From IMG/VR virus record IMGVR_UViG_3300033145_000681, positions 1 through 64,000 of that record: a DNA stretch of 64,000 nucleotides, one strand, 5' to 3'. This stretch comes from a virus. The notes beneath the pieces were generated by a model. It was given only the letters and a program-made list of their open reading frames with translations. It did no database searches and was not told the origin of the DNA. The position numbers were made by a program, and so were the translations under genes. Positions 1,148-64,000 of this stretch are shown piece after piece. Positions within the stretch are counted from its first letter, which is position 1; each line of letters begins with the position of its first letter.

Positions 1148-1164
1148 AATTGCACGGTGCAATT
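1148..1164 (+). promoter_or_regulatory. 17-bp palindrome copy 1 (putative parS-like site)
   Basis: AATTGCACGGTGCAATT is a perfect inverted repeat around one central G, extended by flanking T and A. It lies between the methyltransferase stop and the virion promoter at 1195. Six exact copies occur in the window. It is the proposed binding site of the ParB protein at 36714-37742; this assignment is inferred and not shown by the sequence alone. Confidence 0.85.
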
Positions 1165-12812: not shown

Positions 12813-15113
12813 ATGGCGTTCGGCTGGTATGACTTGGCGTGGCTCCAGGTCAAAGATGTTGTAATCCCCAGCGCCCAGCTCGGGGGCAGCGGAACCCTTT
12901 CTGATTTCAGATGGCTGGTGTCAAGGGTAGATGCGCAGTTGCAGGCGGACGCTCGGGCTGACGGCAACGATATCCTCTTCTGCGATACGGACGGCGTAAC
13001 GAAACTCGATCACGAGCTGATCTCTTATGATAACGTCACCGGTACGATTCTGGCATTGGTTCGGATTCCTACGGTTGCGGATGCATCCCAGGACTATACG
13101 GTCTGGATGTATTTTGACAATGCTGCTGCCGCGGCCCAGGAGAATCCAGATGGTGTTTGGAAGGACGCTCCCAGCAAGCCAGCCGTTGCCGCATACCATT
13201 TCGAGAATGACGTACTCGACTCCTCCGGAAACTCCTTCGATCTTACCAACGACGGCAGCGTAGACGTTGCCGGCAAGGTAGGCCGGGGAAGAACGCTGGA
13301 TGGGGTAGCCGATTCGATGTCCGCTACCGGGGCCGATTTCAGTACTGTCGAGCAGGATACATCATTCTCCATTCTCGCTTTTGCCAAGCCGGGGGCATCT
13401 GCCGAACGCCAGCAGATATTCTACAAGGGCAATACCGGGGAAGAGAATCTCTGCCTCTTCATCAATGAGGTAGGCCATGCCGTCATCATGGTGTACCGCG
13501 CTACCATCTTCGAGTACTACGCGGAAGGCGCTACGAACCTGAAGGACGTTGCCTGGCATCGAATCATCGGCGTCCGGGACGGTACCGATTTCAGGATCTA
13601 CGTAGACGGCGTGGATGATACTGCCGTCACATCCCTGGGCCCGACTACCCAGCAGACTGTTGAGGATGTGTATATCGGGAAGCGTTTCAACGAGGATTAC
13701 TTCCTGAATGCGGACGTCGATGAGATCTGGGTGCTCAGTGCGGCGATGAACGATGCGGAGGCTGCGGCGGATTACAATTCACTGAACGATCCGGCAGCCT
13801 TTGCTACATTCGGGCCGGCGAAGACCTTTGTGGAATCTACCGGGATGGAGATGCCGCTGACGTACCTCGAAGAGATCGAGGTTGATGACGAGATGGTAAT
13901 GAGCATCCTGGAAGGTACTGCCGATCGCGTCATGATAGTCAGCATCATGGAATTCCTGAATTCCGATCAGTCGATGCCCTTCATCCAGGCGCCTCTGGTA
14001 GCGGTCACATCCGATGAGGAGATGCCGGTAACGTACCTGGAGCAGCTTGCCGTCGATGAAGAGATGCCGATTACCCTGCTCGAATACATCCTGAACGATC
14101 TGGAAATGCCGGTACCGATCCTGCAGTACATTTACAGCGATATCGAGATGGTCGTAGCTCCCTCCCAGGATCGTGATGACGATCGGATCATGCCGGTAAC
14201 GTACCTGGAAGGCATCCGGGTAGACATGGATCTGCCGCTTACGTATCTCGAAGAGATCACCGTTGATCCGGATCTGCCGGTAATGAATACCCAGGAGATC
14301 CGCGCCGATGAAGAGATCCCCTTCCATCAGCTCCAGGAGATCTACAACGATGAGGAGATGCCGCTGAACGTAAGCAATACCGGGACGATCGCCGATAGGG
14401 AGATGCCGGTATTCTTCCGGGAGGAGATCGATGGCGACGAGGAGATGCCGGTATCGATCGAGGAGCATCTGGAATTCGATTCCGAGATGCCGATCATGTG
14501 GACAGAAGCGCTGCTCAACGATGAGGAGATCCCGGAGACGTATCTGGAGGAGATCACGGTAGAGCGGGAATTGCCGATGTCCTGGTCGGCGCCGCTATTC
14601 AATGACGTAGACATCCCGGTTACATTCCTGGAGATCCTGTACTTCGATCGGGAGCTGCCGATATCCATAAGCGAATTCATCGAGGTGCAGCGGGAGAGCC
14701 AGCTGCCGATCTTGCAGGGAGTGAATGCAGATCGTGAGATGCCGGCGACCATACTGCAACTCGTCGCTTTCGACCTCGATGTTCCGATTGTGATCCTGGA
14801 GCATCTCTGGAACGAGCTGGAGATGCCGGTATCCTTCGACAAGGTCGTGGCGCCGGTACCGATCGTGCCGGCCGATCGGGAGATGAACATCTACATCGGC
14901 CAGGCGATTCGCGGCGAGCGCGAGATGCCGGTAACGCTCCGGGCATTCATCGAGGCATTCAGAGAGATGCCGATGGAGTGGCAGGACGAGATCCTGTATG
15001 TGATCCCGGAAGGCATCTACAACCTGATCGTCAAGACGTATCAGTACGATCTGGAAGTCATGAAGGAAACCGTACTGCATGAGCGCGTCGATACCGAGCT
15101 GGATATTCCCTGA
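12813..15113 (+). CDS. Fibre-like protein: DUF2341/LamG-like head plus 14-residue repeat stalk
   Basis: The 766-residue product begins with a DUF2341-like beta domain (residues about 1-115, with the YTVWMYFDN block). A LamG/concanavalin-like domain follows (about 125-330, containing VAAYHFENDVLDSSGN and WHRIIGVRDGTDFRIYVDG). From residue 346 to about 720 it consists of about 27 copies of a 14-residue unit of the form [ED]-[MLI]-P-[VIL]-x4-E-x-I-x-x-D. Such a head-plus-stalk plan suggests a virion appendage binding carbohydrate. The stop overlaps the next start by one base. I do not know a named family for the repeat. Confidence 0.7.
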   Translation: MAFGWYDLAWLQVKDVVIPSAQLGGSGTLSDFRWLVSRVDAQLQADARADGNDILFCDTDGVTKLDHELISYDNVTGTILALVRIPTVADASQDYTVWMYFDNAAAAAQENPDGVWKDAPSKPAVAAYHFENDVLDSSGNSFDLTNDGSVDVAGKVGRGRTLDGVADSMSATGADFSTVEQDTSFSILAFAKPGASAERQQIFYKGNTGEENLCLFINEVGHAVIMVYRATIFEYYAEGATNLKDVAWHRIIGVRDGTDFRIYVDGVDDTAVTSLGPTTQQTVEDVYIGKRFNEDYFLNADVDEIWVLSAAMNDAEAAADYNSLNDPAAFATFGPAKTFVESTGMEMPLTYLEEIEVDDEMVMSILEGTADRVMIVSIMEFLNSDQSMPFIQAPLVAVTSDEEMPVTYLEQLAVDEEMPITLLEYILNDLEMPVPILQYIYSDIEMVVAPSQDRDDDRIMPVTYLEGIRVDMDLPLTYLEEITVDPDLPVMNTQEIRADEEIPFHQLQEIYNDEEMPLNVSNTGTIADREMPVFFREEIDGDEEMPVSIEEHLEFDSEMPIMWTEALLNDEEIPETYLEEITVERELPMSWSAPLFNDVDIPVTFLEILYFDRELPISISEFIEVQRESQLPILQGVNADREMPATILQLVAFDLDVPIVILEHLWNELEMPVSFDKVVAPVPIVPADREMNIYIGQAIRGEREMPVTLRAFIEAFREMPMEWQDEILYVIPEGIYNLIVKTYQYDLEVMKETVLHERVDTELDIP
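13848..14982 (+). repeat. About 27 tandem 14-codon (42-bp) units
   Basis: Successive units begin GAGATGCCGGTA or close variants (E-M-P-V). Spacing is 14 codons in most cases, with occasional 12, 13, 15, 16 or 20. Examples include EMPVTYLEQLAVDE, EMPITLLEYILNDL and DLPLTYLEEITVDP. The units are diverged at third positions, so they are maintained by selection on protein sequence and are not a recent expansion. Confidence 0.9.
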
Positions 15114-18626: not shown

Positions 18627-18976
18627 CTCTCTTTGAGGATTATCCCGAGGTAGCGAACAGGACATGCGAGGATTGCAGGAAGCAGGTATATGACAAGCAT
18701 GGAAACATCATCTATCGTCCTGACGGGACGCCGGAGCCCAGACCGACTCCTCCGGTATGTACCCAATGCGCGAAGAAGCGTCCCGGGCTTGCTGATCTCT
18801 CCTTTCGGAATTTCCAGGTCTACAAGAAGTATGTTACGTGCAAGACTCTCAGCTGCCTTCCCCGGCCTGGGGGCCTCGAAAATCAGGATCAGGAACTCGC
18901 TCGGAAGTTTGAATACCTTGCCATGTTCGATCGTCAAAGGGAGATCGCTATGCGTTCTGCAGGGGTTGGATTTTAA
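18611..18976 (+). CDS. Tail assembly chaperone, -1 frame extension (T-like)
   Basis: After a -1 slip the frame continues for 121 codons and adds LIGGVALFEDYPEVANRTCE and further sequence to TAA 18974-18976. The fusion would be about 333 residues. It carries CEDC and CTQC pairs that could bind zinc, and later helices (YLAMFDRQREIAMRSAG). No start codon or ribosome site exists for separate expression. The G-T fusion recruits the tape measure in lambda-like phages; this role is inferred from position. The final bases overlap a 17-bp palindrome. Confidence 0.75.
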   Translation, partial: LIGGVALFEDYPEVANRTCEDCRKQVYDKHGNIIYRPDGTPEPRPTPPVCTQCAKKRPGLADLSFRNFQVYKKYVTCKTLSCLPRPGGLENQDQELARKFEYLAMFDRQREIAMRSAGVGF

Positions 18977-18991
18977 TTGCACGGTGCAATT
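18975..18991 (+). promoter_or_regulatory. 17-bp palindrome copy 2
   Basis: AATTGCACGGTGCAATT overlaps the last two bases of the chaperone fusion stop (TAA) and ends 14 bases before the tape measure start. Orientation (central G) matches copies 1, 5 and 6. Confidence 0.85.
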
Positions 18992-25833: not shown

Positions 25834-27528
25834 ATGAAATCATCTCTGATCGTAGACGAGGATGGCACCTTCCGCGTTCACATGAAGCGGGAGACTGCCA
25901 AGAGCATCCCGTGGATCCGCGCGGCGAAGGACGGTTGGTTTACCGGATTCTGGATCAACATCCCGCGGCTGGTACAGCATGTCGAGCTTACCCCGGCGCC
26001 GGACAGCGTAAGGATACTCAAGCAGCTCCGGGAAGCCAAGCGCCAGGCGATCGAGATGAAGGATGACGAATCGGATCAGGTATCCCATCTCTTCCTGGAG
26101 GGGAAGAAGCCGAAGCCGTTCCAGCACCAGGCGATCAATTTCTCCCTGCATCAGAAGAATGTACTCATTGCCGACGATGTAGGGCTGGGGAAGACCTTCG
26201 AAGCGATGGGGATCATGCTCCGCGCCTTCGAGCTTGATGAGGTAGATATCGCCATCATCCTGTGCCCTGGCTCGATCAAGTATCAGTGGAAGCAGGAGAT
26301 CGAGATGGCGAATGCATACCTCCCGGATTTCGAGAGCCAGGTTGAGATAGTAGATGGCGATCGCTCATCCCGGATGGACAGCTATGAATTGCACCGTGCA
26401 ATTACCATCCTGCACTACCAGTGCCTCATCCGGGACTATGAAGAGATCTGGGAGATGATTGAAGGCAAGCGGATCCTGGTAATCGCTGACGAGATTACGG
26501 CGAAGGGGGGCTGCAAGAATCGAACTACCAAGACCGCGAAGATATTCAAGAAGCTGTTCAAGAAGGCCGTATACAAAATCGCGCTTACCGCTACGCCGAT
26601 CGAGAATCGGCTGGAGGATCTGTACTCAGTATTCGAGTGGATCGATTCCAGGCCCTTCGGGCCCGTAGGATGGTTCCGGGAGAAGTACTGCCGAATGATC
26701 GACATCCCTCTCAAGAATCGCGGGTTCACCATCAAGAAGGTAATCGGGTACAAGAATCTCCAGGATGCGGAGAATCGGATTGCCGATCGGTACATCCGGA
26801 GGACCGCGGCGGACGTCGGTGTACAGATGCCGAAGGTCGTAACGATGGTGCGCCGCGTAGAGATGATCCCGGAAGCTCGAAAGATATACGATGTGATGTG
26901 CGCCCAGATCCGCGCGGAGAAGGCGGCCGGGGCAGGGAGCATGTTCGGGAAGATGATCCCGCTTCGCAGATGCTGTGCGGCGCCGTGCCTGGTAGGCGGG
27001 GAGGGAGAGGATTCCGGGAAGATCGCCGATCTCCTAGAAATGATGGAGGGGGAGCTTGCCGGCGAATCTATCATCATCGTTACGCAATGGCGCGAGAAGT
27101 GGATGGACATCCTCACGCGCCGGCTGAAGAAATGGAATCCGGTAGTAATGCATGGAGAGGTCGATCGCCGGCAGCGGGAAGCAGCCAGGCGGCGCTTCCA
27201 GGATGGGGAGTGCAAGGTAATGATCATGACCGAGGTAGGCGAGAGGGGGATGAATCTGCAGACGGGGAGCGTACTCGTAAACCTGGATCTTCCCTTCAAT
27301 CCCGCGAACATCCATCAACGCGCCGGCAGGATCTATCGCATGGGATCCCCGCACGATCGGATCAGGGTAGTCGCTTTCGTCGCTCGGGATACGGTAGAGG
27401 AGCGGGTACTGGATATACTATCGCAGAAGGGCGATCTATTCGCCGAGGTTTTCTCTGAGGATGGGGTAGCGAAGCTGGTATCCCGGATGAGTAAGCTGAC
27501 GGACGATCAATGGAGGAAGATGCTATGA
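25834..27528 (+). CDS. SNF2-family DEAD/DEAH-type helicase
   Basis: The 564-residue product has all helicase blocks. Walker A is DDVGLGKT near residues 114-121. Motif II is VIADEI (about 216-221; ADEI where DEAH is usual). Motif III is LTATPIENRLEDL (about 251). The second RecA lobe contains SVLVNLDLPFNPANIHQRAGRIYRMG-type motifs V and VI near 480-505. This matches SNF2/Rad54-like ATPases used in phage replication or recombination. The N-terminal 90 residues are a separate small domain. It contains palindrome copy 3 in its coding sequence. Confidence 0.9.
   Translation: MKSSLIVDEDGTFRVHMKRETAKSIPWIRAAKDGWFTGFWINIPRLVQHVELTPAPDSVRILKQLREAKRQAIEMKDDESDQVSHLFLEGKKPKPFQHQAINFSLHQKNVLIADDVGLGKTFEAMGIMLRAFELDEVDIAIILCPGSIKYQWKQEIEMANAYLPDFESQVEIVDGDRSSRMDSYELHRAITILHYQCLIRDYEEIWEMIEGKRILVIADEITAKGGCKNRTTKTAKIFKKLFKKAVYKIALTATPIENRLEDLYSVFEWIDSRPFGPVGWFREKYCRMIDIPLKNRGFTIKKVIGYKNLQDAENRIADRYIRRTAADVGVQMPKVVTMVRRVEMIPEARKIYDVMCAQIRAEKAAGAGSMFGKMIPLRRCCAAPCLVGGEGEDSGKIADLLEMMEGELAGESIIIVTQWREKWMDILTRRLKKWNPVVMHGEVDRRQREAARRRFQDGECKVMIMTEVGERGMNLQTGSVLVNLDLPFNPANIHQRAGRIYRMGSPHDRIRVVAFVARDTVEERVLDILSQKGDLFAEVFSEDGVAKLVSRMSKLTDDQWRKML
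26387..26403 (-). promoter_or_regulatory. 17-bp palindrome copy 3, inside the helicase gene
   Basis: AATTGCACCGTGCAATT, with central C, so opposite in orientation to copy 1. It encodes part of YELHRAIT at residues 184-191, between helicase motifs I and II. Retention of an exact site inside a coding sequence argues for selection on the DNA. Confidence 0.85.
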
Positions 27529-29547: not shown

Positions 29548-30771
29548 ATGCTGGACGAGCCTGACGAAGTGGAAGTAATCGAGAAGCCGATCAAGCTGAT
29601 GATCGTAGGGGGGGCTAGGCCGAACTGGATGAAGATCTCTCCGATCCTCCGGGCGATCGACCAGTACAATCTGAACGGGGTCACGGTGCTCGGCCCAGGC
29701 GATTACGGGCTGGGGACCGAAGCCATAACGGGCCTTCAGAAGATCAAGCCGATCATCGTCAATACCGGCCAGCATTACGATTACGAGATGGCCGGCTCAT
29801 TCCTGGAGGGATTCGGTATCTCTGAAGATGACATGATCAGCCTGGACGTTCGGAAGAACGGGCTGGGGATGGTGATGGCGACGGTCATGGCGCGGATCTC
29901 TCCGGTTATGGAGTATGTCGAGCCGGATGCGGTAATGGTAGTCGGCGATGTAGATTCTACCCTGGCCGCGGCGATCACTGCCAGGCGATTGAGCATCCCG
30001 GTAATCCATGTCGAGGCCGGCCTGAGATCCGATGACGAGACGATGCCGGAGGAGAACAATCGGCGCCTGACGGATCACGTATCTGATTTGCTGTTCACTA
30101 CGGAATCGGATGCGGATCATAATCTCGATTGCGACGGGATCGACATGGAGCGGGTACACTTTGTCGGGGATGTAATGATCGATTGCCTGATGCAGCATGA
30201 GGAGGAGATCGCAGCCAGCGATATCGTCTCGAAGCTCGGCCTGGAAGGGAAGCCGTATGCGGTATTGACTCTCCATCGGCCGGCGAATGTGGATGATGGG
30301 GAGATTCTGAGAAGGATACTCGATGCCGTGGAAGAGATCTCGAAGAAGATTCCGATCATATTCCCGATACATCCCAGAACGAAGAATGCCCTGCTCGGTT
30401 GCTGGGGAGATCTGCCATCTTTGAGGGGACCTCTCCAGGCGATCAAGCCGCAGCCCTACGCCGACTTCATGAGCCTGGTCAAGAATTCCCGCATGGTGCT
30501 TACCGACTCCGGAGGCATCCAGTCAGAGACTACCTTCTTCGGTGTACCGTGCCTGACGCTTCGAGAGAATACTGAGCGGCCGATAACGATGCGGATGGGA
30601 TCGAATGCCCTGGCCGGTACGGCTACCGACGAGATCGTAAACCGGGCCATGCTGGTGCTCGAGGATGGCTGGATCAATGAGAGCGATGTCCCTCCCCAAT
30701 GGGACGGCTTCGCGGCCGAAAGGATCGTAGAACATATCGCGCTGTGGTGGCGGGATAGAATACAGGTATGA
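29548..30771 (+). CDS. UDP-N-acetylglucosamine 2-epimerase (WecB family)
   Basis: The 407-residue product matches the non-hydrolysing UDP-GlcNAc 2-epimerase pattern: GGARPNWMKISPILRA at the N-terminus, VVGDVDSTLAAAI and VIHVEAGLRSDDETMPEENNR in the centre, TLHRPANVDDG, and LTDSGGIQSETTFFGVPC near the C-terminus. These correspond to substrate-binding and catalytic blocks of WecB. The family makes UDP-ManNAc for surface polysaccharides. It has GGAGGG before ATG 29548. The gene is embedded in the replication module, away from the glycan cassette at 58848. It could feed that cassette, which is inference. Confidence 0.88.
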   Translation: MLDEPDEVEVIEKPIKLMIVGGARPNWMKISPILRAIDQYNLNGVTVLGPGDYGLGTEAITGLQKIKPIIVNTGQHYDYEMAGSFLEGFGISEDDMISLDVRKNGLGMVMATVMARISPVMEYVEPDAVMVVGDVDSTLAAAITARRLSIPVIHVEAGLRSDDETMPEENNRRLTDHVSDLLFTTESDADHNLDCDGIDMERVHFVGDVMIDCLMQHEEEIAASDIVSKLGLEGKPYAVLTLHRPANVDDGEILRRILDAVEEISKKIPIIFPIHPRTKNALLGCWGDLPSLRGPLQAIKPQPYADFMSLVKNSRMVLTDSGGIQSETTFFGVPCLTLRENTERPITMRMGSNALAGTATDEIVNRAMLVLEDGWINESDVPPQWDGFAAERIVEHIALWWRDRIQV

Positions 30772-35784: not shown

Positions 35785-35907
35785 TTACCGACTATCAAGT
35801 AGAGTGTCTGGGCCGAATGAGTCGCGCCGTGAAGGGCGGCAATAGAGATCTAGCGTACCAGTGGCTCGGACGGGCACAGGCGATATCAACAATTGGAAAG
35901 GAGGATC

Positions 35908-36122
35908 GTGTGAAGTTGAAGACGGTAGACGAGGTTGCGGAGGAGATGAGGGTCACGCCTGGGACGGTGTACAAATGGATCAAGGAAGGCTTGCTCGATG
36001 CGGACAAGCTGCCGTCCGGGGTCATTCGGATCAGTGAGGAGGCGATCGAGAAATTCATGGGCCGTGACAAAGGAGGAGGCGATGCAGTCGGACAGCCGGC
36101 CGTACCTGAAGGAACTGCTTGA
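35908..36122 (+). CDS. Excisionase/MerR-type HTH DNA-binding protein
   Basis: GTG 35908 follows AAAGGAGGA. The product (71 residues) begins with LKTVDEVAEEMRVTPGTVYK, the excisionase-family winged-helix pattern, then WIKEGLLDADKLPSG, and ends in a short Gly-rich tail. The same frame is open upstream to a TTG at 35781 that overlaps the previous stop, so a longer form of 113 residues is possible. Its end overlaps the sigma-like gene, suggesting joint control of late or early switch genes. Confidence 0.68.
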
Positions 36123-36630
36123 TTTCGAACCGAAGATGAGGAGCATGATCAACAACTTCAGATCGGTCGGCTACCGATTCGAAGGCCACGACGAAGAGGA
36201 TCTCACGCAAGAGCTTTTTGTCAAGGCGCTGGAGATCGAGGGGAAGTACGATGCAGAGAAGGCGATGCTGCGCACATGGTGGTATCGCTGCTTCACCGCT
36301 CATCTCGTCAAGCTCGCAGAAAGATCCGGGAAGATCATGAAGTGGGCAGCCAGGCTGGAGGATGCGGATATTGTGATCGCATCGCCGGCATTCGTAGAGA
36401 CGGATGACTGGAGGACCCGGGCCCAGGCGCTCATCGATGAGATGATGCGCGAGCTTCATGTGGTAGATCCTCCGCTGGCTCGAGTATGCGAAGCGGTAAT
36501 GGATCTCGATGGCGATATCGATGCCGTAGCGGATCATATGGGGATTCCTAGTTACAAGATTGAGAGGGATATGAGAAGGCTCCGGTATTGGGAGCCGTAC
36601 CGGGAAGCGCTGGAGAGCATCCCGTGGTGA
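36082..36630 (+). CDS. Sigma70-family-like transcription factor
   Basis: The 182-residue product starts at ATG 36082 behind AAAGGAGGAGG. Residues about 35-75 match sigma region 2: EEDLTQELFVKALEIEGKY, then MLRTWWYRCFTAHLVKLAER. The C-terminal part (DIDAVADHMGIPSYKIERD) is a region 4-like HTH. The size suits a small group 4 type factor. It overlaps the HTH gene and lies 83 bp upstream of parB. Its promoters are not identified; the CGACC-TATA set in the window is a candidate. Confidence 0.68.
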   Translation: MQSDSRPYLKELLDFEPKMRSMINNFRSVGYRFEGHDEEDLTQELFVKALEIEGKYDAEKAMLRTWWYRCFTAHLVKLAERSGKIMKWAARLEDADIVIASPAFVETDDWRTRAQALIDEMMRELHVVDPPLARVCEAVMDLDGDIDAVADHMGIPSYKIERDMRRLRYWEPYREALESIPW

Positions 36631-36636
36631 GATCTT

Positions 36637-36653
36637 AATTGCACCGTGCAATT
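36637..36653 (-). promoter_or_regulatory. 17-bp palindrome copy 4, upstream of parB
   Basis: AATTGCACCGTGCAATT lies between the sigma-like stop and parB, extended to TTAATTGCACCGTGCAATTAA (21 bases in all including its arms). A -10-like TACAAT at 36673-36678 lies 19 bp downstream, so the site would overlap the -35 region and allow ParB autoregulation. Confidence 0.88.
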
Positions 36654-36713: not shown

Positions 36714-37742
36714 ATGGTTGAAGAGATTGACAAGATCTTAGAGGATTTCGAGGATGGGGACAGCGCCCCCGCAGAGCCCGGCAAGAAGCCGGAGGAGGCC
36801 GAGAAGAAAGCGGCCGGGAAGGCGCCGGCAGCTGGGAAGGGTACAAAGGCGGCGAAGAGAACGAAGGTATCAAAGCCGGGGAAGGGTGGCAAGGGATCGA
36901 AGCCGGCAGCGGAGCCGAAGGGAGTCCCGGAGCCGACGATCGATCTGCGGCTCGAGAACGTTCCCTGCACGGCAATCAAGACAAAGGCGCACCAGACGAA
37001 TACCAGGGAGAAGCTCACGGATGCGGATCTCGAAGACATTCTCGAATCAGCCGGCACGGCCGGCATCAGGAATCCGATCAGGTTGATCGATGATAAGGAT
37101 GGATCGTTCACGCTGGTAACCGGAAAGCGGCGTCTGGCTGCCGCGCGGAAGCTGGCGCTCGAGGAGATCCCTGCTCTGGTCAGCTCTGCCGATGCGGTAG
37201 ACGTCGAGGTGGATAGTGCGATCGAGAATCTGGTGCGCCGGGATTACGGGCCGATCGAGGAGGCGAAGGCATACCATGTGCTGATCAAGAAGCACAAGGT
37301 AGATCAGAAGCGGCTGGCGAAGATGGTAGGGCGCAGCGAATCTCACATTTCCCGGAAGCTCTCGCTCCTGGATGCTCCTGCCAAGACGCAGAAGAAGCTG
37401 GAGGCGGGGAAGGTTACGGAGAAGCAGGCGCGGAGCAAGGCTTCGAAGAGCGCTCCTGGTGCGAAGCGGGGCCCGAAGATGAGCATCATGCCGATACCCC
37501 CGGGGGATCTCCCCTATGGCGTATCGCTTTCCGTCCGGGAAGGTTTCGATGTCGAGTACTCCTCCGCGCTGGGGCTGCCCAGGCAGACCATTACGCTTTC
37601 GGTAAAGGTCGATATCAATACCGCGAAGAAGGGACTCGCCAGGTCTGTAGGGAAGGCCGCGAAGCTGGCGGCGATCAAGATGATCAACGAGATCGTCCCG
37701 AAGAATGTAGACTCCGCATACAAGGCCATCAAGGGAGTCTGA
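36714..37742 (+). CDS. parB: ParB-family CTPase/DNA-binding protein
   Basis: The 342-residue product starts at ATG 36714 after GGAGG. A basic, disordered N-terminus (about 1-85) precedes a ParB/Srx domain. Box I-like GIRNPIRL lies near 118, followed by the nucleotide-binding box VTGKRRLAAARKLA near 135 (the GERR equivalent). ENLVRRDYGPIEEAKAYHVL leads into the helix-turn-helix RLAKMVGRSESHISRKLSLL near 200. The C-terminal 110 residues could dimerise. This is a full ParB architecture. No ParA gene is in the window. Six exact 17-bp palindromes, one directly upstream, are its likely targets. Confidence 0.88.
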   Translation: MVEEIDKILEDFEDGDSAPAEPGKKPEEAEKKAAGKAPAAGKGTKAAKRTKVSKPGKGGKGSKPAAEPKGVPEPTIDLRLENVPCTAIKTKAHQTNTREKLTDADLEDILESAGTAGIRNPIRLIDDKDGSFTLVTGKRRLAAARKLALEEIPALVSSADAVDVEVDSAIENLVRRDYGPIEEAKAYHVLIKKHKVDQKRLAKMVGRSESHISRKLSLLDAPAKTQKKLEAGKVTEKQARSKASKSAPGAKRGPKMSIMPIPPGDLPYGVSLSVREGFDVEYSSALGLPRQTITLSVKVDINTAKKGLARSVGKAAKLAAIKMINEIVPKNVDSAYKAIKGV

Positions 37743-39305: not shown

Positions 39306-40262
39306 GTGCCAAAGAAGCCCAAACAAAGCGTTCTCGGCGCGGCAGCCGAGGATCTCAAGAAGAAGGGACTGCACCGTCCCGGAAAGCGTACCGTCGAGGT
39401 CTTCAAGACAGGGCTCATCGCCTTTGACAAAGGCTTCGGCGGCGGTCTGGTAAGAGGGAAGATCTACGAGATCGCCGGAAGGGAATCTACCGGCAAGACC
39501 ACGCTCTGCACGGAGATCGCCAAACAAATTCAGCGCCAGCTGAAGAAGGCGGTTGTCTATCTTGATTTTGAGCATTCCTATGATGTTGCCTATGCGGCCG
39601 CGATGGGATTGGAAGTCGATGACCCGGATGCATTCATATTCGACCAGCCGAACAGTCTGGAAGATGGGCTCAAGGTAGGCCGGCGTCTGATCGAGACGGG
39701 GAAGGTAGGTGCGGTTGTGGTCGATTCCGTAGCCGGCATGTCCCCAAAGTCGGAGATCAAGGTTAACAAGAAGGGAGAGGAGAGCAGCGCTCCCGCGCAG
39801 CAAGCCCAGGCATTCGGGCCGGAGATCCGGAAGTACATCTCCCTCCTGGCGAATACCAATACGATCGGGTTATTCGTTAATCAGACCCGGGTGAAGTTCG
39901 CTACCTGGGGCAAGTCAGGAACGACTACGCCTGGCGGCAGCGCTCTGAAGTTCTTCGCATCCGGAAGGATGATGCTCTTCTGCCGGAGATCCAAGGTCCA
40001 CCCCGAGGATGGCAAACGCACGAAGATCTGTATCTGGAAGAACAAGACCCTGGGTGGCGTATGCCAGGACAGCGAATACGAGATCCGGCCGATGATGGGC
40101 ATCCTCCGGGAAGAGGAACTGCTGGAGATTGCGCAGAACGCCGGGATCATAACTGACAAGCAGGGATACTATACCCTTGCGGGGAAGAAATTCCGGGGGC
40201 GCGAGAAGATCCTGGAAGTACTGCGGGATGAGAGGGTCAGGAAATGGATACTGGATCAGTAG
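39306..40262 (+). CDS. recA: RecA-family recombinase
   Basis: The 318-residue product starts at GTG 39306. Walker A is GRESTGKTT (about 58-66). A YLDFEHSYD strand follows, then Walker B AVVVDSVAG (about 138) and the RecA L2-like GTTTPGGSALKFFASGRM near 200. It has the RecA core but a shorter C-terminus than bacterial RecA. It probably drives strand exchange in phage replication and repair. Its end overlaps the next start. Confidence 0.9.
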   Translation: MPKKPKQSVLGAAAEDLKKKGLHRPGKRTVEVFKTGLIAFDKGFGGGLVRGKIYEIAGRESTGKTTLCTEIAKQIQRQLKKAVVYLDFEHSYDVAYAAAMGLEVDDPDAFIFDQPNSLEDGLKVGRRLIETGKVGAVVVDSVAGMSPKSEIKVNKKGEESSAPAQQAQAFGPEIRKYISLLANTNTIGLFVNQTRVKFATWGKSGTTTPGGSALKFFASGRMMLFCRRSKVHPEDGKRTKICIWKNKTLGGVCQDSEYEIRPMMGILREEELLEIAQNAGIITDKQGYYTLAGKKFRGREKILEVLRDERVRKWILDQ

Positions 40263-46738: not shown

Positions 46739-47009
46739 TTCCGTAGCAACGCTGATATTCGATTACGATGAAGGATTCATTGCGGAGCTGAAGCAGGCGG
46801 TCCCGAGCCATGATCGCGGATGGAATCCGGAGAAGAAGGAATGGACGGTCAGCGCCAGGCACGTAGAGGACGTCCTGGCCATGGCGGTAGACTACTTCGG
46901 CCGGGAAACGTACAAGGTAGTTACCGATGACGATGCCGGCAAGACGGTCAGAACGAACATGGTAACAGGGCATAAGCAATCTCAGGGGCATCTATTTAGT
47001 GGGGCGTAA
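46710..47009 (+). CDS. HARP-like small domain protein
   Basis: This 99-residue protein contains LIFDYDEGFIAELKQAVP and RGWNPEKKEWTVS, the pattern of the small HARP-like/SNF2 N-terminal module that reads branched DNA. It may cooperate with the helicase at 25834. Followed by palindrome copy 5, which overlaps its stop. Confidence 0.5.
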   Translation: MFECLMVKDDSVATLIFDYDEGFIAELKQAVPSHDRGWNPEKKEWTVSARHVEDVLAMAVDYFGRETYKVVTDDDAGKTVRTNMVTGHKQSQGHLFSGA

Positions 47010-47024
47010 TTGCACGGTGCAATT
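47008..47024 (+). promoter_or_regulatory. 17-bp palindrome copy 5
   Basis: AATTGCACGGTGCAATT overlaps the last two bases of the HARP-like stop and ends 11 bases before the radical SAM gene start. Central G orientation. Confidence 0.85.
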
Positions 47025-55030: not shown

Positions 55031-56176
55031 ATGGCGGTAGCTCGGCATCAGGACGCGCGGATAAGGAAGTACGCCAGGCGGGTATGGGATACCGCGGAGC
55101 AGGCTACCCGTCTGGAGATGATCACCGACCTTACCATCCCCTTCCGTAATTCCACGAAGGTATACATCAAGTCTCAGATGATGGAGTCCTATCGAATGGC
55201 CCGGGCCCGGGCTCGGATGACGGTAGAGAGAGCGCATCGAGCGCGGGTACAGATCCAGGAGATGGACCCCTTTTCTAATTGCACGGTGCAATTGCCCGAC
55301 ATAACCCCTGAGTTCCTAGAGCGTTTCGATGGCGCCGTGGAGCTGGATGAGATCTCATTCGTATCCAAGATCCAGGAGCTGGAAGCTGACGAGCTTGCCT
55401 ACCATCAGATCGTAAAGGAGTATGGCGCCTGGGCAGAGCTGCAGGGTAATGAGATGTGGCAGCAGAAGGTCAAGACCGCGAAGGGCACGATGGTGCGCGG
55501 CATTGAGAATGGCTGGGGGCTCAATCCTGTAGGGGAGTATACCAAGGCCGGTAAATCGGTATCGGCTTTCGAGGCAACGGGCGGGGTTGGGGGCTCCGCC
55601 AATGTCCTGAAGGGATATAGCTACACGCAGCTTACCCCGGGGATACTGGACGAGCTGCAGAAGGATCTCGCCAGCTTCGGGTATAGCGGTCATCAGCTTG
55701 AGCGCCTGGCGCGGACGGAATATACCCGGGCCATGAATGCGGGGCTGCTGTCCATCTACCAGGAAGACGATATGATTGTCGGGTACGAATGGTCCGCGAT
55801 CCTGGATGCCCGGACATGCGTAGAGTGCGCCATGATGGACGGGGTACAGATGGATCGAGGAGATCCCCGGCTCGGGGATTACACACCTCCGCTGCATCCT
55901 CATTGCCGATGTGAGATCCTACCGATATTCGCCTGGGAGCAGCGAGAGGCGAACATGGATACGCAGCGTACCGTTACGCTGTACGACAAGGAGGGGAGAG
56001 ACTTCACGGTCGACTACATCCCGAATCGGATCAATCCGGACTTCCTGAAGACCATCCGGCCGGCGAACGATTCGGCGGGTATCAAGCGGCAGCTGATTAC
56101 CAAGAAGAAGGCGGAGAAGCTCCGGAACAATTTCGTCCCGACGATGCTGGTACACGATTCCCCGGCGCTGAATTGA
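55031..56176 (+). CDS. MuF/SPP1 gp7-like minor head protein
   Basis: The 381-residue product from ATG 55031 contains a helical N-terminal domain, then ARTEYTRAMNAGLLSIYQED, a DARTCVECAMMDG segment and PPLHPHCRCEILP, the conserved MuF signature with metal-type Cys/His. These proteins enter with the genome and can carry C-terminal toxins; no toxin domain is evident. The frame is open and coding-like upstream to about 54888 but lacks a normal start. Palindrome copy 6 lies inside. Confidence 0.75.
   Translation: MAVARHQDARIRKYARRVWDTAEQATRLEMITDLTIPFRNSTKVYIKSQMMESYRMARARARMTVERAHRARVQIQEMDPFSNCTVQLPDITPEFLERFDGAVELDEISFVSKIQELEADELAYHQIVKEYGAWAELQGNEMWQQKVKTAKGTMVRGIENGWGLNPVGEYTKAGKSVSAFEATGGVGGSANVLKGYSYTQLTPGILDELQKDLASFGYSGHQLERLARTEYTRAMNAGLLSIYQEDDMIVGYEWSAILDARTCVECAMMDGVQMDRGDPRLGDYTPPLHPHCRCEILPIFAWEQREANMDTQRTVTLYDKEGRDFTVDYIPNRINPDFLKTIRPANDSAGIKRQLITKKKAEKLRNNFVPTMLVHDSPALN
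55277..55293 (+). promoter_or_regulatory. 17-bp palindrome copy 6, inside the MuF-like gene
   Basis: AATTGCACGGTGCAATT encodes part of SNCTVQLPD at residues about 82-90. Exact retention in a coding sequence argues for a DNA function. Central G orientation. Confidence 0.85.
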
Positions 56177-58847: not shown

Positions 58848-60881
58848 ATGCCGGAGATCGTATTCGACGCCAGCATGGGTATGTCTGCAGAGCAGGCTCC
58901 CAGGCCGACAAGGAAGAAAAAGCCTCGTGTGGGGCGACCTGGGAGCCACCACAAGGAGATTCTGACCACATCCCAGGTAGATTCGAATATCCATAGAAAG
59001 GCTCGTGGTGGAGGGGCGGCCGGGGCCGGTGCGTTCGTGCCATCAATCCCCGAAGTCGCCCAGCCACCCACTACCAGATTCCCGGCGATGGGGACATCGG
59101 TACAGGTAGTTCGGCAGAAGGGCTTCCCGCTGCAGCCTACGGAGGTCGCTTTATGGGTAGTAATCCCGACGCACAATCGCCCGAAGGAATTCCCTAGATG
59201 CCTGGAGCGAGTACTCGCGGAGCTGGGCCCGGACGATCGGGTAGTAGTAGTCGCCAGCGGCTTCCGGATGTTCCAGGCAGTACGGGAAGCGTCAAGGCAT
59301 CCGAGCGTGATAGGATTGCTCTTCGGGGATTGTACCGTAAACGAAGCGCGGCGCCATGCGAATGGTATCGTTCCTGAAGGCGCGGCGATTGTAGAGACGG
59401 GAGATAATGACTTCATCACTACCGGATCTCTCGATCGCATCCGGGAAGCATTCGAAGATCCAAAGCTGGGAGTCGTATACGGCAATCTCCAATTCCTGGA
59501 CATCCACGGCAGGGCGCACGGGCCGATGATCCGGAAGCCTGCCTGGGAGAAGGGGATCATGCATCGGCGCTGCGAAGTAAAGGGGCTCCATGCATATCGG
59601 AAGATCGTATACGAGCAGTACGGGGGGTGGTATCAATCGGAGTGGCCTGCCGGCGATCATGCCAATGCGATCCGCTGGGAAGATGCCGGGGTCAAATTCA
59701 AGAGCATCGGCGGTCCTCCTCTCGTATGCTGTACCTGGGATCCGGAAGGGATGTCGACGGGCAAGCTCCGGAGTCAGCAGCATCACAATTCCCAGCAATT
59801 CGCGCGGGGTCATTACCGAAGGAAGTACTCCGTAGGGATGGCCTGCTGGGCAGTCGCCGGCCGGCGTACCAAGATGCTGGCGCTGATAGATGATATCTGC
59901 GATCAGAGCAAGGTCCGGATCTATGCATGCGCTCGGGGCCGGTACGGAGCGGCATGCGATACGGACGAGCATATCAGGAAGCGGATCGTCTGGTGGAAGG
60001 CGATGAGCGAGCTGGACGAGCATCTCCCGAAGCATGAGGTATCGCACCTCTTTGTCGATCGCCTGAATTTCGCTACCCGATCTGCAGCCCTGGGCAGAAG
60101 GGTAGTCGTAGACATCTGCGATCTGAGGAGCCAGCGTACCGGGACGCATGACGATCCGGATGAGAAGATCCTATGTACGAGCCCGAACGTCTGGCTGATG
60201 TTCGTATCGGAAGGTCATCGGGATTACATCTGCGAGAAGTACGGCATGCCGATCGAGCGGACGCACATCGTACCGAATCTTCCCATGAAGAGCTGGCGGC
60301 CGGAGGAGCCGATCACGGAAGAGGAGAAGGTTCCCAATTCCCTGGTCTACTACGGAGGGATTACCGCGAAGCGTGGGCATACCGCGGCGTACCGATGTTA
60401 TTACGATCTCTTCCTGGCGCTGAAGAATGCCGGCGTCGATGTCCATATCTATCCTTCAGGGGCCCGGAAGAGAGAGGTCGAAGAGGGGTATGCGGAATTC
60501 ACCGTGCATGAGCGCTTCGATCATCGGGACATCTACAAGATTCTCAGGAAGTACACCGTAGGCTTCGCCGGCTACGAGGATCGCGCGGGATGCCCGAAGG
60601 TATCTCATGACTATGCGATGAAGTGTTATCCGAACAAAGCTACCGATTACATGATGGCCGGTATCCCTACGGTAAGCTACGCGCTGGGCTTGGCAGAGAA
60701 GGACGTTCAGAATTGGGGTGTCTGCGTACCGAAGGGATCTGCCGGCAGGTTGGCCGATGCGTATGAGGAAGCCCGGATCAAGGTAATCGATTACGAGCGG
60801 TGGCAGAACATCTTCTGCATGGAGAGCCAGGCAGATAAGCTGATCGAGGCATACGATTGGGTTGCGGGGAGGAAGGGATGA
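58848..60881 (+). CDS. Two-domain glycosyltransferase (GT2-like plus GT-B-like)
   Basis: The 677-residue product, after a basic disordered leader (1-80), has a GT2-like domain (about 100-290): ALWVVIPTHNRPKEF, DDRVVVVASG, and the acidic ETGDND at about 185 as a DxD-type metal site. The C-terminal domain (about 330-670) is GT-B-like with VYYGGITAKRGHTAAYR and late CYPNKATDYMMAGIPTVSY. Such fusions add and extend sugars. It overlaps the next gene by four bases. First gene of the glycan cassette. Confidence 0.75.
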   Translation: MPEIVFDASMGMSAEQAPRPTRKKKPRVGRPGSHHKEILTTSQVDSNIHRKARGGGAAGAGAFVPSIPEVAQPPTTRFPAMGTSVQVVRQKGFPLQPTEVALWVVIPTHNRPKEFPRCLERVLAELGPDDRVVVVASGFRMFQAVREASRHPSVIGLLFGDCTVNEARRHANGIVPEGAAIVETGDNDFITTGSLDRIREAFEDPKLGVVYGNLQFLDIHGRAHGPMIRKPAWEKGIMHRRCEVKGLHAYRKIVYEQYGGWYQSEWPAGDHANAIRWEDAGVKFKSIGGPPLVCCTWDPEGMSTGKLRSQQHHNSQQFARGHYRRKYSVGMACWAVAGRRTKMLALIDDICDQSKVRIYACARGRYGAACDTDEHIRKRIVWWKAMSELDEHLPKHEVSHLFVDRLNFATRSAALGRRVVVDICDLRSQRTGTHDDPDEKILCTSPNVWLMFVSEGHRDYICEKYGMPIERTHIVPNLPMKSWRPEEPITEEEKVPNSLVYYGGITAKRGHTAAYRCYYDLFLALKNAGVDVHIYPSGARKREVEEGYAEFTVHERFDHRDIYKILRKYTVGFAGYEDRAGCPKVSHDYAMKCYPNKATDYMMAGIPTVSYALGLAEKDVQNWGVCVPKGSAGRLADAYEEARIKVIDYERWQNIFCMESQADKLIEAYDWVAGRKG

Positions 60882-61477
60882 AAAGGATATTTATTACCGG
60901 CTGCTCTCGATCGGGTACCACGCTGCTGAAGAGATTGTTCTATGCATTCCCGTCAGTAGGCGTACACAAGGCTGAGATCTCTCTGGATAGTTTTTCAGGG
61001 ATCCCGAATCACCTCGATTGCATTGCCTATGTCGGGAAGCGGAAGTGCAAAACGGTCTTCAGCAATGTGCTGCCCCAGGCAGAGATCGATCTGCAGCTGA
61101 AGCTCATCCGCGAGAGGGAGATCCTGGTAGTCAACATCATCCGGGGAAGGACGGCGGTGACCGAGGCGAAGGATTGGCCGGTTCCGGTAGATAGATACAA
61201 TGCCGCGATTACCCAGGCGGGGATCTACTGCAATCACATCGCGTATGAAACGAATTACGAGACGCTCATATCTGAGCCGGATCTCGTACAGGGGGAGATT
61301 GCTGAGCGGTTAATTCCTGAAGTTAAGAAATTCGGATATCAGGTATGGAGTGACTATCCTGAATTTGTTCCTCCAGACGAATTCGCCGACATATCAGATC
61401 CGCGGTACGCTCCCCGACCGATCGGGCAGAGCATGTTTCATGAGGAGGCGATCAATGAAGATCCTGCTCTGGGCTAA
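60878..61477 (+). CDS. Sulfotransferase-family protein
   Basis: The 199-residue product starts with FITGCSRSGTTLLKRLFYA, the 5'-phosphosulfate-binding P-loop of sulfotransferases. A VVNIIRGRTAVTE strand follows, and helices to the end. It is shorter than typical sulfotransferases. It could sulfate the glycan made by neighbouring enzymes. Starts in an ATGA overlap (ATG 60878) after GGAAGG. Confidence 0.72.
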   Translation: MKRIFITGCSRSGTTLLKRLFYAFPSVGVHKAEISLDSFSGIPNHLDCIAYVGKRKCKTVFSNVLPQAEIDLQLKLIREREILVVNIIRGRTAVTEAKDWPVPVDRYNAAITQAGIYCNHIAYETNYETLISEPDLVQGEIAERLIPEVKKFGYQVWSDYPEFVPPDEFADISDPRYAPRPIGQSMFHEEAINEDPALG

Positions 61478-62480
61478 GAGCCCATGCATCCGGACGTACA
61501 AGGAAGCCGTCGCGCTCCGGACGTACGGGGTAGAGACAGTCCTGGCCTATGCCGGGCAGACCATCGGCGGCCGGTATCCCGGGCTCAAGGATGAGGATGC
61601 CTTCGATGAGATCGCAATCCAGAAGGACATCTCCCGATTCCATTACATCGATGATCAGAAGGTCGATGTAATCCATACGGCGCATCCTCCGGACAGTTCC
61701 GTCCGGGAGCTGTTGGGAGCGAATGTCCCGATCGTCCATGACTTCCATGATCTGGAGAGCTTTTCTGAATCGCCGAAGCCCCTGCTGGTACGGCATGAGA
61801 AGGATGCGGCCTGCTGTGCATCGGCGCTGGTATTCGTATCCGGATCGATGGAGCGCAGCGTCAAGGCGACGTATCCGGGAGCGGCGATGATGGGAGCGGT
61901 AATCCCGAATGCGGCAGGGGAGGAAGAACTCTCGAATGAGGTTGTCTGGCATTGGCCTGCCGGCGAGACGCATGTGGTCTACGCAGCAGCAATGCCTCAT
62001 TGGGGAGATGGTCACTTCCGGGATCTGAAGCCTCATGCCGATCAGCTCATCGCCCAGGGGATCTTCGTGCACGTTCATGCGTTGATCATCCAGCCGGCGC
62101 TGCAGGCAGCGGCAGCCCATTGTCCGCTTCTCCGCATCGAGCCCCAGGTAACAGGGCTGTTATTGCTGGAGCAGCTGGAGAAGTACCATGCCGGCATCAT
62201 CCCGCATCGAGGCAGGAATAAACTCATCCAGAAGCATATCGACATGAGCGTCCCGAACAAGCTGTACGAGTACTGGCAAGTAGGCGTCCCGGTAATCTGC
62301 CTGCCGGCAGTAGAGACGCAGCTCATGGTCGAGGAGTACAAGCTCGGGTGGATCGTAGAGGATTACTCGAATCTGGCATCCGTAATCAAGCAGCCGTACA
62401 AACCGAAGCGGAAGGTCATCAGAATGCGGGAAGAGGTCAGGAAGTTAATCTCACTCTACGAGGATGTGTTATGGCGATAA
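61455..62480 (+). CDS. Glycosyltransferase (GT-B-like)
   Basis: The 341-residue product starts at ATG 61455, overlapping the sulfotransferase by 23 bp. N-terminal KILLWAKSPCIRTYKEAVAL, a central HDFHDLESFSE and C-terminal MSVPNKLYEYWQVGVPVICLP match GT-B proteins with a nucleotide-sugar-binding C-lobe. No DxD required. Confidence 0.72.
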   Translation: MKILLWAKSPCIRTYKEAVALRTYGVETVLAYAGQTIGGRYPGLKDEDAFDEIAIQKDISRFHYIDDQKVDVIHTAHPPDSSVRELLGANVPIVHDFHDLESFSESPKPLLVRHEKDAACCASALVFVSGSMERSVKATYPGAAMMGAVIPNAAGEEELSNEVVWHWPAGETHVVYAAAMPHWGDGHFRDLKPHADQLIAQGIFVHVHALIIQPALQAAAAHCPLLRIEPQVTGLLLLEQLEKYHAGIIPHRGRNKLIQKHIDMSVPNKLYEYWQVGVPVICLPAVETQLMVEEYKLGWIVEDYSNLASVIKQPYKPKRKVIRMREEVRKLISLYEDVLWR

Positions 62481-63349
62481 AGCTCTACGGTGTAGTTTCC
62501 GGCAGATCCATCAGCGGCCTGAATCGAATCGGACGGATGATCATGCCTGACATTGAGATAGTCAAGGATGGGCCAGCTGATCCATCTCTTTATCAGGGGG
62601 TGATCTGTCATAATTACATGGGCGATCCATTCGGGAAGAAGCTCCCGAGGATCGTCTTCCTTGCCAGCTGCAAGACGGGGAGCCTGGCGCTGAACAAGAA
62701 GACCAGGAGGCTATTCCTTGCGCATCCTCCAGACGCGCTCTGGGTCAATCAGGAATCCGGGCGCCTGGCGCTGAAGAAGGTAGGCATCGAAGCGACTACC
62801 ATGTTCCGGCCGAATCGCCTGGCGATCCCGAGTGAGGAGCCCCTGCCGTTCAATGAGAAGAAGATCCTCTGGCATTGGCATCCCGGATCATGGATGTCCC
62901 CGAAACTCGAGGCCGGTATTGCCAAGGCCATGCGGAGCCTGAAGGATTTCGAGATCCTGGTTATCAGCGGGCTCCGCGATAAGAGCCTCAAGCCTGCAGG
63001 GAAGGGGCTCGATCATGTAACGGGCGGGGGCTGGATAGATCTCCGGACGGATATGAACCAATACGCCGGGATCGTTCGCGTATATGATGTTCCCTGCATG
63101 TTCGATCTCGGCAGGAGCACGTTTCAGGCATTCGCGTATGGCCGCTGGAATATATGCCGAGCTACACGCGAGCCGTTAGTAGATACAATACACCGTGTGG
63201 AGGAGATTCCGGCGCTGGTACGCAGCCTGGTAAAAGGCGACAATCAGAAGATTGCCCGGAAGCGGTGGAAGTATATCAGGAGTAACTTTACGGAGGAGGC
63301 GCTGCATGAGCGGTGGGTCAAAGCGGTCAAGGAAGTTATCCATGCATGA
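62471..63349 (+). CDS. Glycosyltransferase-like protein
   Basis: The 292-residue product overlaps the previous gene by 10 bp. YGVVSGRSISGLNRIGRMIM and a GT-B-like C-lobe (MFDLGRSTFQAFAYGRWN) with late helices. Weaker match than its neighbours, but cassette context fits. Confidence 0.6.
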   Translation: MAIKLYGVVSGRSISGLNRIGRMIMPDIEIVKDGPADPSLYQGVICHNYMGDPFGKKLPRIVFLASCKTGSLALNKKTRRLFLAHPPDALWVNQESGRLALKKVGIEATTMFRPNRLAIPSEEPLPFNEKKILWHWHPGSWMSPKLEAGIAKAMRSLKDFEILVISGLRDKSLKPAGKGLDHVTGGGWIDLRTDMNQYAGIVRVYDVPCMFDLGRSTFQAFAYGRWNICRATREPLVDTIHRVEEIPALVRSLVKGDNQKIARKRWKYIRSNFTEEALHERWVKAVKEVIHA

Positions 63350-63962
63350 GGTGAAGAAATGTCTGGTACTCAGTCCCCATTACGATGATGCGGAGCTGGG
63401 GTGCGGCGGGACGATTGCCAAGCTCATCCGGAACGGCGCCCATGTCCGGGTAATGGTATTCGCAGAGCAGCGCCGGCTGGACAAGAGCATGCCGGAAAGG
63501 CTTGAGGAGGAGATGAACGCCTCTGCCAAGATCCTCGGCTTCGATGGGATAATGTTCAGGCTCGAAGGCCGGCGCCTGGGAGAATCCCGGCAGGCCATTC
63601 TTGATGACATGATCCAGGAGGGGAAAGACTTCCAACCGGATCTGGTGCTCGCGCCTTCGCTGATGCAGACGCACCAGGATCATCAGGTCGTATCCCATGA
63701 AGCCTTCCGGGCATTCAAGTATACGTCCCTGCTGGGATATGACATGCCGTGGAACTATCTGGATTCCGGCCGGCTGAGTACGTTCGTGGAGATCTCGAAG
63801 CAGCACCTTGCCAAGAAGGCGGCAGCCGTTCAATGCTACGCCTCCCAGATGCCGCGGCCGTACTTCGATCGAGAGGTAATCGAATCCCTGGCCCGGGCCC
63901 GGGGGCTGCAGTGCGGCAGGAAATATGCCGAAGCCTTCGAGACGTACCGCTGGTTTCTCTGA
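63342..63962 (+). CDS. LmbE/PIG-L-family deacetylase
   Basis: The 206-residue product starts at ATG 63342. LSPHYDDAELGCGGT is the family zinc motif (normally PHPDDE; Pro to Tyr here), and QTHQDHQVVSHEAF provides the distal His residues. These enzymes deacetylate GlcNAc-containing glycans or lipids. It completes the sugar-modifying set. Overlaps the next start. Confidence 0.8.
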   Translation: MHEVKKCLVLSPHYDDAELGCGGTIAKLIRNGAHVRVMVFAEQRRLDKSMPERLEEEMNASAKILGFDGIMFRLEGRRLGESRQAILDDMIQEGKDFQPDLVLAPSLMQTHQDHQVVSHEAFRAFKYTSLLGYDMPWNYLDSGRLSTFVEISKQHLAKKAAAVQCYASQMPRPYFDREVIESLARARGLQCGRKYAEAFETYRWFL

Positions 63963-64000
63963 TGGATGCCTCCGAGTATCTGACCATCAAACAGAAGCTG
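63962..64000 (+). CDS. Partial gene at the right edge
   Basis: ATG 63962 overlaps the deacetylase stop. Only 13 residues (MDASEYLTIKQKL) are in the window. Nothing more can be said. Confidence 0.45.
   Translation, partial: MDASEYLTIKQKL

Follow-up and report, generated by a model that had tools for sequence, protein, structure and literature searches.

The stretch of viral DNA analysed here, hereafter the window, covers bases 1-64,000 of a 68,354-bp virus record that has no end repeats and may therefore be incomplete. Calls made with a simple script, which are approximate, place about 94 genes in the window, all on the plus strand. These include tail and head genes, a DnaB-like helicase, a RecA/UvsX-like recombinase, a calcineurin-type phosphoesterase, an AAA_23 (SMC/Rad50-like) ATPase, an SNF2 helicase and a sugar-modification cluster. 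Replication-initiator, repressor and lysogeny genes were not recognised in the window phage, and no integrase was found among its scanned proteins. At 36714..37742, on the plus strand, lies parB, an orphan gene of the ParB/Noc type encoding 342 aa. The gene for a sigma-70-like protein (36082..36630, plus strand) sits directly upstream of parB and of the palindrome that precedes it; its PF04542 match is weak and below the cut-off (23.7 bits versus 24), and it matches a PHROG sigma factor at 3.5e-5. Also upstream of parB is the gene for an excisionase/MerR-type HTH protein (HTH_17; 35817..36122, plus strand; TIGR01764, 33.7 bits).

Two further features of the gene set deserve mention in their own right. 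The sugar pathway cluster occupies window positions 29548-30771 and 58848-64000, continuing to the end of the record (L002), and encodes a UDP-GlcNAc 2-epimerase, glycosyltransferases, a PIG-L deacetylase, a sulfotransferase-like protein, a methyltransferase, a hexapeptide transferase and WbqC. A tail-region gene (window 13841-14974) contains about 14 degenerate repeat copies, mostly spaced by 42 bp, corresponding to a 14-residue protein repeat.

The ParB protein, its CTP pocket and its orphan status

The protein comprises a K/A/P/G-rich tail (residues ~1-75), a ParB_N CTP-binding fold (80-173), a ParB HTH (177-241) and a C-terminal part (~250-342) without a Pfam match. It exceeds the cut-offs of PF02195 (ParB_N; 40.7 versus 26.3 bits), PF17762 (HTH_ParB; 59.1 versus 22.6 bits) and TIGR00180 (104.4 versus 58.45 bits), the last placing it in the ParB/RepB/Spo0J family. 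The closest solved structures by sequence are those of Noc (1.5e-20) and ParB/Spo0J, with KorB a weaker match (1.1e-6). Models for specific subfamilies score below their cut-offs, both for the KorB domain (PF08535; 18.3 versus 22.3 bits) and, by a wide margin, for Noc (TIGR04285; 108 versus 315 bits). Within the tail, residues 21-70 form a basic stretch (15 K/R versus 5 D/E) that could add non-specific DNA contact. No close relatives of this ParB or of the RecA-like protein were found among viral contigs. An earlier note made from the sequence alone had read a GKRR box, an ENLxRxD-type linker and a ParB HTH in the protein; the first two motifs are present at residues 137-140 and, as ENLVRRD, at residues 171-177.

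Alignment with Caulobacter ParB indicates that the equivalents of Q58, R60, S74, G79, R103, R104, E135, N136 and R139 are all kept, including every residue whose loss abolished CTP binding in that protein. Among the aligned CTP-pocket positions only the catalytic glutamate, E102, is changed; it aligns with Lys138 of the GKRR motif, which is encoded at 37122..37133 (plus strand) and takes the place of GERR. The E102A variant of Caulobacter ParB binds CTP and closes but does not hydrolyse the nucleotide, and it leaves DNA ~15-fold more slowly, the clamp being locked closed (PMC8367383). Because the catalytic Glu of GERR is replaced by Lys, the window ParB probably hydrolyses CTP poorly and would stay long on DNA. 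Loss of this glutamate is common among viral relatives, being seen in 41 of 80 ParBs, mostly with His in its place; none of the 80 has Lys.

The search for a ParA partner, made with two Pfam families and a three-sequence local model, extended over the whole 68,354-bp record. It returned no AAA_31 (PF13614) match at E<=10, and for CbiA (PF01656) just a 12.9-bit P-loop match within the RecA-like gene. No partner is thus seen in this possibly incomplete record, and the ParA-binding motif LG[KR]GL is likewise missing from the window ParB. The absence of ParA that the earlier note had remarked on in its own stretch therefore extends to the rest of the record. The weight placed on it as the headline does not carry over, as 77 of 80 viral ParB loci have no ParA within ~5 kb (3 have one, by a small local model) and, according to a published survey, phages commonly carry orphan ParBs (PMC12704722). 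Orphan status on its own is thus ordinary for a phage ParB, whereas the identification as a ParB, the lack of a ParA and the idea of a clamp with dispersed sites are supported.

A dispersed palindrome array and its counterparts in other viral contigs

The 17-bp site mentioned in the earlier note is real, and the record carries seven perfect copies of AATTGCACSGTGCAATT, against ~5e-6 expected from base composition. These candidate ParB loading sites, to which no strand is assigned, lie at 1148..1164 (intergenic), 18975..18991 (intergenic, with the tape-measure gene starting 14 bp further on), 26387..26403 (inside the SNF2-type helicase gene), 36637..36653 (preceding the start of parB by 60 bp; here the perfect palindrome extends to 21 bp), 47008..47024 (at a gene boundary), 55277..55293 (inside a Mu-F-like head gene) and, outside the window, 64503-64519 of the record. 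Allowing one or two mismatches in the TTGCAC-N-GTGCAA core gave no further copy in the window. Successive sites are 17.8, 7.4, 10.3, 10.4, 8.3 and 9.2 kb apart, which is more even than random placement (p ~0.01), and five of the seven are not fully within a called gene (p 1.3e-5), the other two lying inside genes. The half-site ATTGCAC agrees at 6 of 7 positions with the combined parS/NBS half-site [G/A]TTTC[A/C]C, the consensus half-sites being GTTTCAC for parS and ATTTCCC for NBS (PMC7383237); the half-site of KorB is TTTTAGC, around a single central base (PMC11790492). A repeated palindrome with a ParB-like half-site is thus spread over the genome, a candidate array of ParB-type sites. A literature search on the 17-bp site gave nothing relevant.

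Whole contigs of 26 other ParB phages were scanned for palindromes with four or more copies. Most had no such array. Among those that did, G011 carries eight copies of ATTCCG-CA/TG-CGGAAT, G020, whose contig has a ParA, four of TTGCGC-SS-GCGCAA, G027 eleven of CGAACC-S-GGTTCG, G031 eight of ATTTCC-NN-GGAAAT and G036 five of TATTTC-N4-GAAATA, the sites of G031 and G036 being of the known Noc type. Palindromes in G021 were set aside, as they look like hairpins. None of 12 contigs drawn by a mostly chance pattern match had an array, a difference that is not significant by count alone. Further NBS-type copies occur in G067 (eight), G068 (four) and G069 (three exact consensus NBS), and altogether five ParB-bearing viral contigs carry Noc-type ATTTCCNNGGAAAT arrays, a sequence found in none of the 45 other ParB contigs searched.

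A reciprocal scan, starting from NBS-type palindromes, yielded four contigs with at least two copies (G036, G067, G068 and G069). A ParB match is present in three of these four, whereas PF02195 matched none of the 17 contigs with a single copy (p 0.003); PF02195 detected the ParBs of G067 and G069, and a local model detected that of G036. With a more sensitive local model, a ParB is also found in G068, right beside a site. A similar model gave only weak matches when applied to the remaining single-copy loci and to control contigs.

The recognition residues of these proteins follow the code of Jalal et al., in which Gln173 reads A1 of NBS and Arg201 reads C6, given Lys at 179 or 184 (PMC7383237). 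Gln173 is present in 5/5 ParBs of NBS-array contigs versus 16/65 in the background (p 0.0017), Arg201 in 3/5 versus 0/65 (p 0.0002), and Arg or Lys at position 201 in 4/5 versus 1/65. G067 encodes two ParBs, of which the site-adjoining one was scored, as decided once the data had been seen, and several of the p-values given here are post hoc. In four of eight arrays (G000, G011, G067 and G068; p 6e-6), a parB start also has a site no more than ~120 bp upstream. Spacing within the G067 array is uneven.

Because recognition residues match and sites adjoin parB starts, the dispersed palindromes of ParB phages of this kind are likely ParB sites, and by analogy the 17-bp site likely belongs to the window ParB. 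The recurrence of arrays that follow the Noc code also strengthens the clamp idea of the earlier note. The window protein departs from Noc, for which Gln173, Lys at 179 or 184, Arg201 and NBS sites would be expected; it has Glu173, Lys179, Asp184 and Lys201, and its site is not an NBS. Its HTH retains Q162, G170, S172 and R204 and differs at R171, E173, R178, K179, D184 and K201, and a changed site specificity is therefore expected.

Viral contigs also carry sites of host type. In G069 (L408, L409), host Noc could also bind the three exact 16-bp consensus Noc-binding sites. At least 120 viral contig stretches, among them L425, L452, L418 and L471, contain the exact chromosomal-type parS (TGTTTCACGTGAAACA), and several of the stretches have three to five copies. 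Exploitation of host ParABS by phages may account for this, or some of these contigs may be bacterial.

A candidate genome-wide clamp and its alternatives

We consider it probable, if by no means certain, that the window encodes a phage-specific, CTP-dependent ParB clamp that is loaded at dispersed sites and coats the phage genome without ParA. The observed basis is the ParB family membership, the kept CTP-binding residues, the lack of a detectable ParA, the evenly spaced array and its recurrence in other ParB contigs. In the proposed mechanism, ParB would recognise AATTGCACSGTGCAATT and load at the seven sites, spaced mostly 7-10 kb apart, close on CTP and slide across the intervals between them, spreading over the greater part of the phage genome and over the promoter region of parB itself. 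In vivo, Caulobacter ParB covers ~10 kb around its sites (PMC8367383), a distance similar to the site spacing here, which makes it plausible that most of the genome would be covered. Lysine in place of the catalytic glutamate would make for poor CTP hydrolysis and long residence on DNA. Acting without ParA, such a coat would most likely organise phage DNA, or shield or silence it during infection, rather than partition it. The site 60 bp upstream of parB suggests autoregulation, with no sigma-70-type promoter match near that site.

In the alternative that fares best, which we nonetheless hold to be unlikely, the protein regulates transcription site-specifically, as KorB or VirB does, and acts mainly at site-adjoining promoters. 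Several genes besides parB are preceded by sites, KorB has the same fold and an odd palindrome with a central base, and both KorB and VirB are CTP switches of the ParB type with a role in transcription regulation (PMC11790492, PMC10770331). However, all called genes run in one direction, with several sites in tiny gaps within gene runs or inside genes, operators are not expected to be evenly spaced, and the lack of a promoter match at the parB site also tells against such a role.

Somewhat more doubtful is that the palindromes are operators of another regulator, either a phage HTH protein or a host factor, unrelated to ParB. A HTH_17 protein, which is a possible alternative binder of the 17-bp site, and the sigma-like protein adjoin the window parB, and five of the seven sites lie at gene boundaries. 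Further support comes from G009 (IMGVR_UViG_3300036785_000284; L121-L124), a 61-kb phage with nine perfect TTGCACSGTGCAA core palindromes of the GATTGCACSGTGCAATC type, and its relative G010 (L125, L126): both have the same 15-bp core and no detectable ParB, so something else can use this core, and this is the main caveat to the ParB-site reading. Since the G009 copies are confined to 11.5-40 kb (the early region) rather than evenly spread (p 0.99), they look like operators of another factor; three of them extend to long perfect hairpins, and the one at 40084 is followed by a small HTH-like protein. By contrast, the window array is even and two of its sites lie inside genes, and the arrays of other ParB contigs follow the ParB/Noc code. 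A host factor finds little encouragement in bacterial genomes, where the 17-mer has 31 matches versus a rough chance estimate of ~30, a tandem array and a repeat family aside, which gives no sign of a common host regulon. Such sites are absent from phage Rollin, whose terminase relates it to G009. Arrays can also have other causes, as Rhizobium phage RHph_TM3_14A (L329) carries 15 copies of GTTACC-N6-GGTAAC over its first 50 kb with no ParB detected. Two related podovirus-like fragments (L006 and L008) have two core palindrome copies each, on contigs too incomplete for the ParB question, and two further site-bearing viral contigs were rejected as support, as their ParB_N proteins are of another kind, one of them fused to a methyltransferase-like domain.

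That the ParB fold is catalytically dead or binds another nucleotide, making this a plain DNA-binding protein, is improbable. The change from GERR to GKRR would fit such a loss, and phage ParB-fold proteins can bind ATP instead of CTP (PMC12704722), but the residues required for CTP binding in Caulobacter ParB are all in place. Partition of an extrachromosomal prophage through host ParA or a ParA-free mechanism is very improbable: the lack of an integrase among the scanned proteins, the partition systems of phages P1 and N15 and the ParA-free segregation proposed for the ParB-only phage Lacachita (PMC10286716) speak for it, but neither ParA nor its binding motif is present, no replication-initiator, repressor or lysogeny gene is recognised, and the segregation of a plasmid-like prophage that the earlier note had floated finds no direct support, there being no recognised integrase and no evidence of a lysogenic state.

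Relation to known systems

We return, then, to the ParA-free clamp. The same layout in several unrelated viruses suggests a shared way of coating or organising their own DNA. More tentatively, and with doubt prevailing, many tailed phages could have arrived independently at ParB clamps that need no ParA and load at evenly dispersed sites of their own, forming a genome-wide, possibly clamp-locked coat that marks, organises or protects phage DNA within the host cell. Likely genome-wide targets, matched to recognition residues in several unrelated contigs, would give the common phage orphan ParBs a testable substrate, and a naturally altered GERR motif is useful for studying CTP hydrolysis in ParB clamps.

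The closest parallel is Noc of Bacillus subtilis, a ParB-family clamp without its own ParA that nucleates at dispersed 16-bp palindromes (PMC8429893), is the best solved relative by sequence and shares A at half-site position 1 of its NBS. In contrast to Noc, the window site reads ATTGCAC-S rather than ATTTCCC, Glu173, Lys201 and Arg178 replace Gln, Arg and Asn, an acidic N-terminus stands in place of the membrane-targeting helix, and the protein gains only 108 of the 315 bits asked by the Noc model. KorB of plasmid RK2 is likewise a CTP clamp of the ParB family whose role goes beyond partition, and its OB sites are odd palindromes centred on a single G/C base (PMC11790492), but its sequence match is weak, with the KorB domain below cut-off, and no KorA partner was found for the window ParB. 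VirB of the Shigella virulence plasmid, which acts at virS, is described as an orphan ParB-type CTP switch acting on gene expression (PMC10770331); replicon and context differ. The phage-plasmid N15 pairs a ParB-type protein with four inverted-repeat centromere sites (SopAB/IR1-4; PMC7205306) but encodes SopA, which is a ParA, and its site differs. In 2023, the authors of one paper stated that, to their knowledge, no phage with only a ParB had been characterised (PMC10286716). The orphan ParB-CTPase-fold proteins of phages share the ParB fold and the lack of both ParA and a ParA-binding motif, whereas genome-wide cognate sites are not described in the accessible part of the survey that reports them (PMC12704722). 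The distinctive feature of the present system is thus its DNA, the array of sites, and not the orphan ParB.
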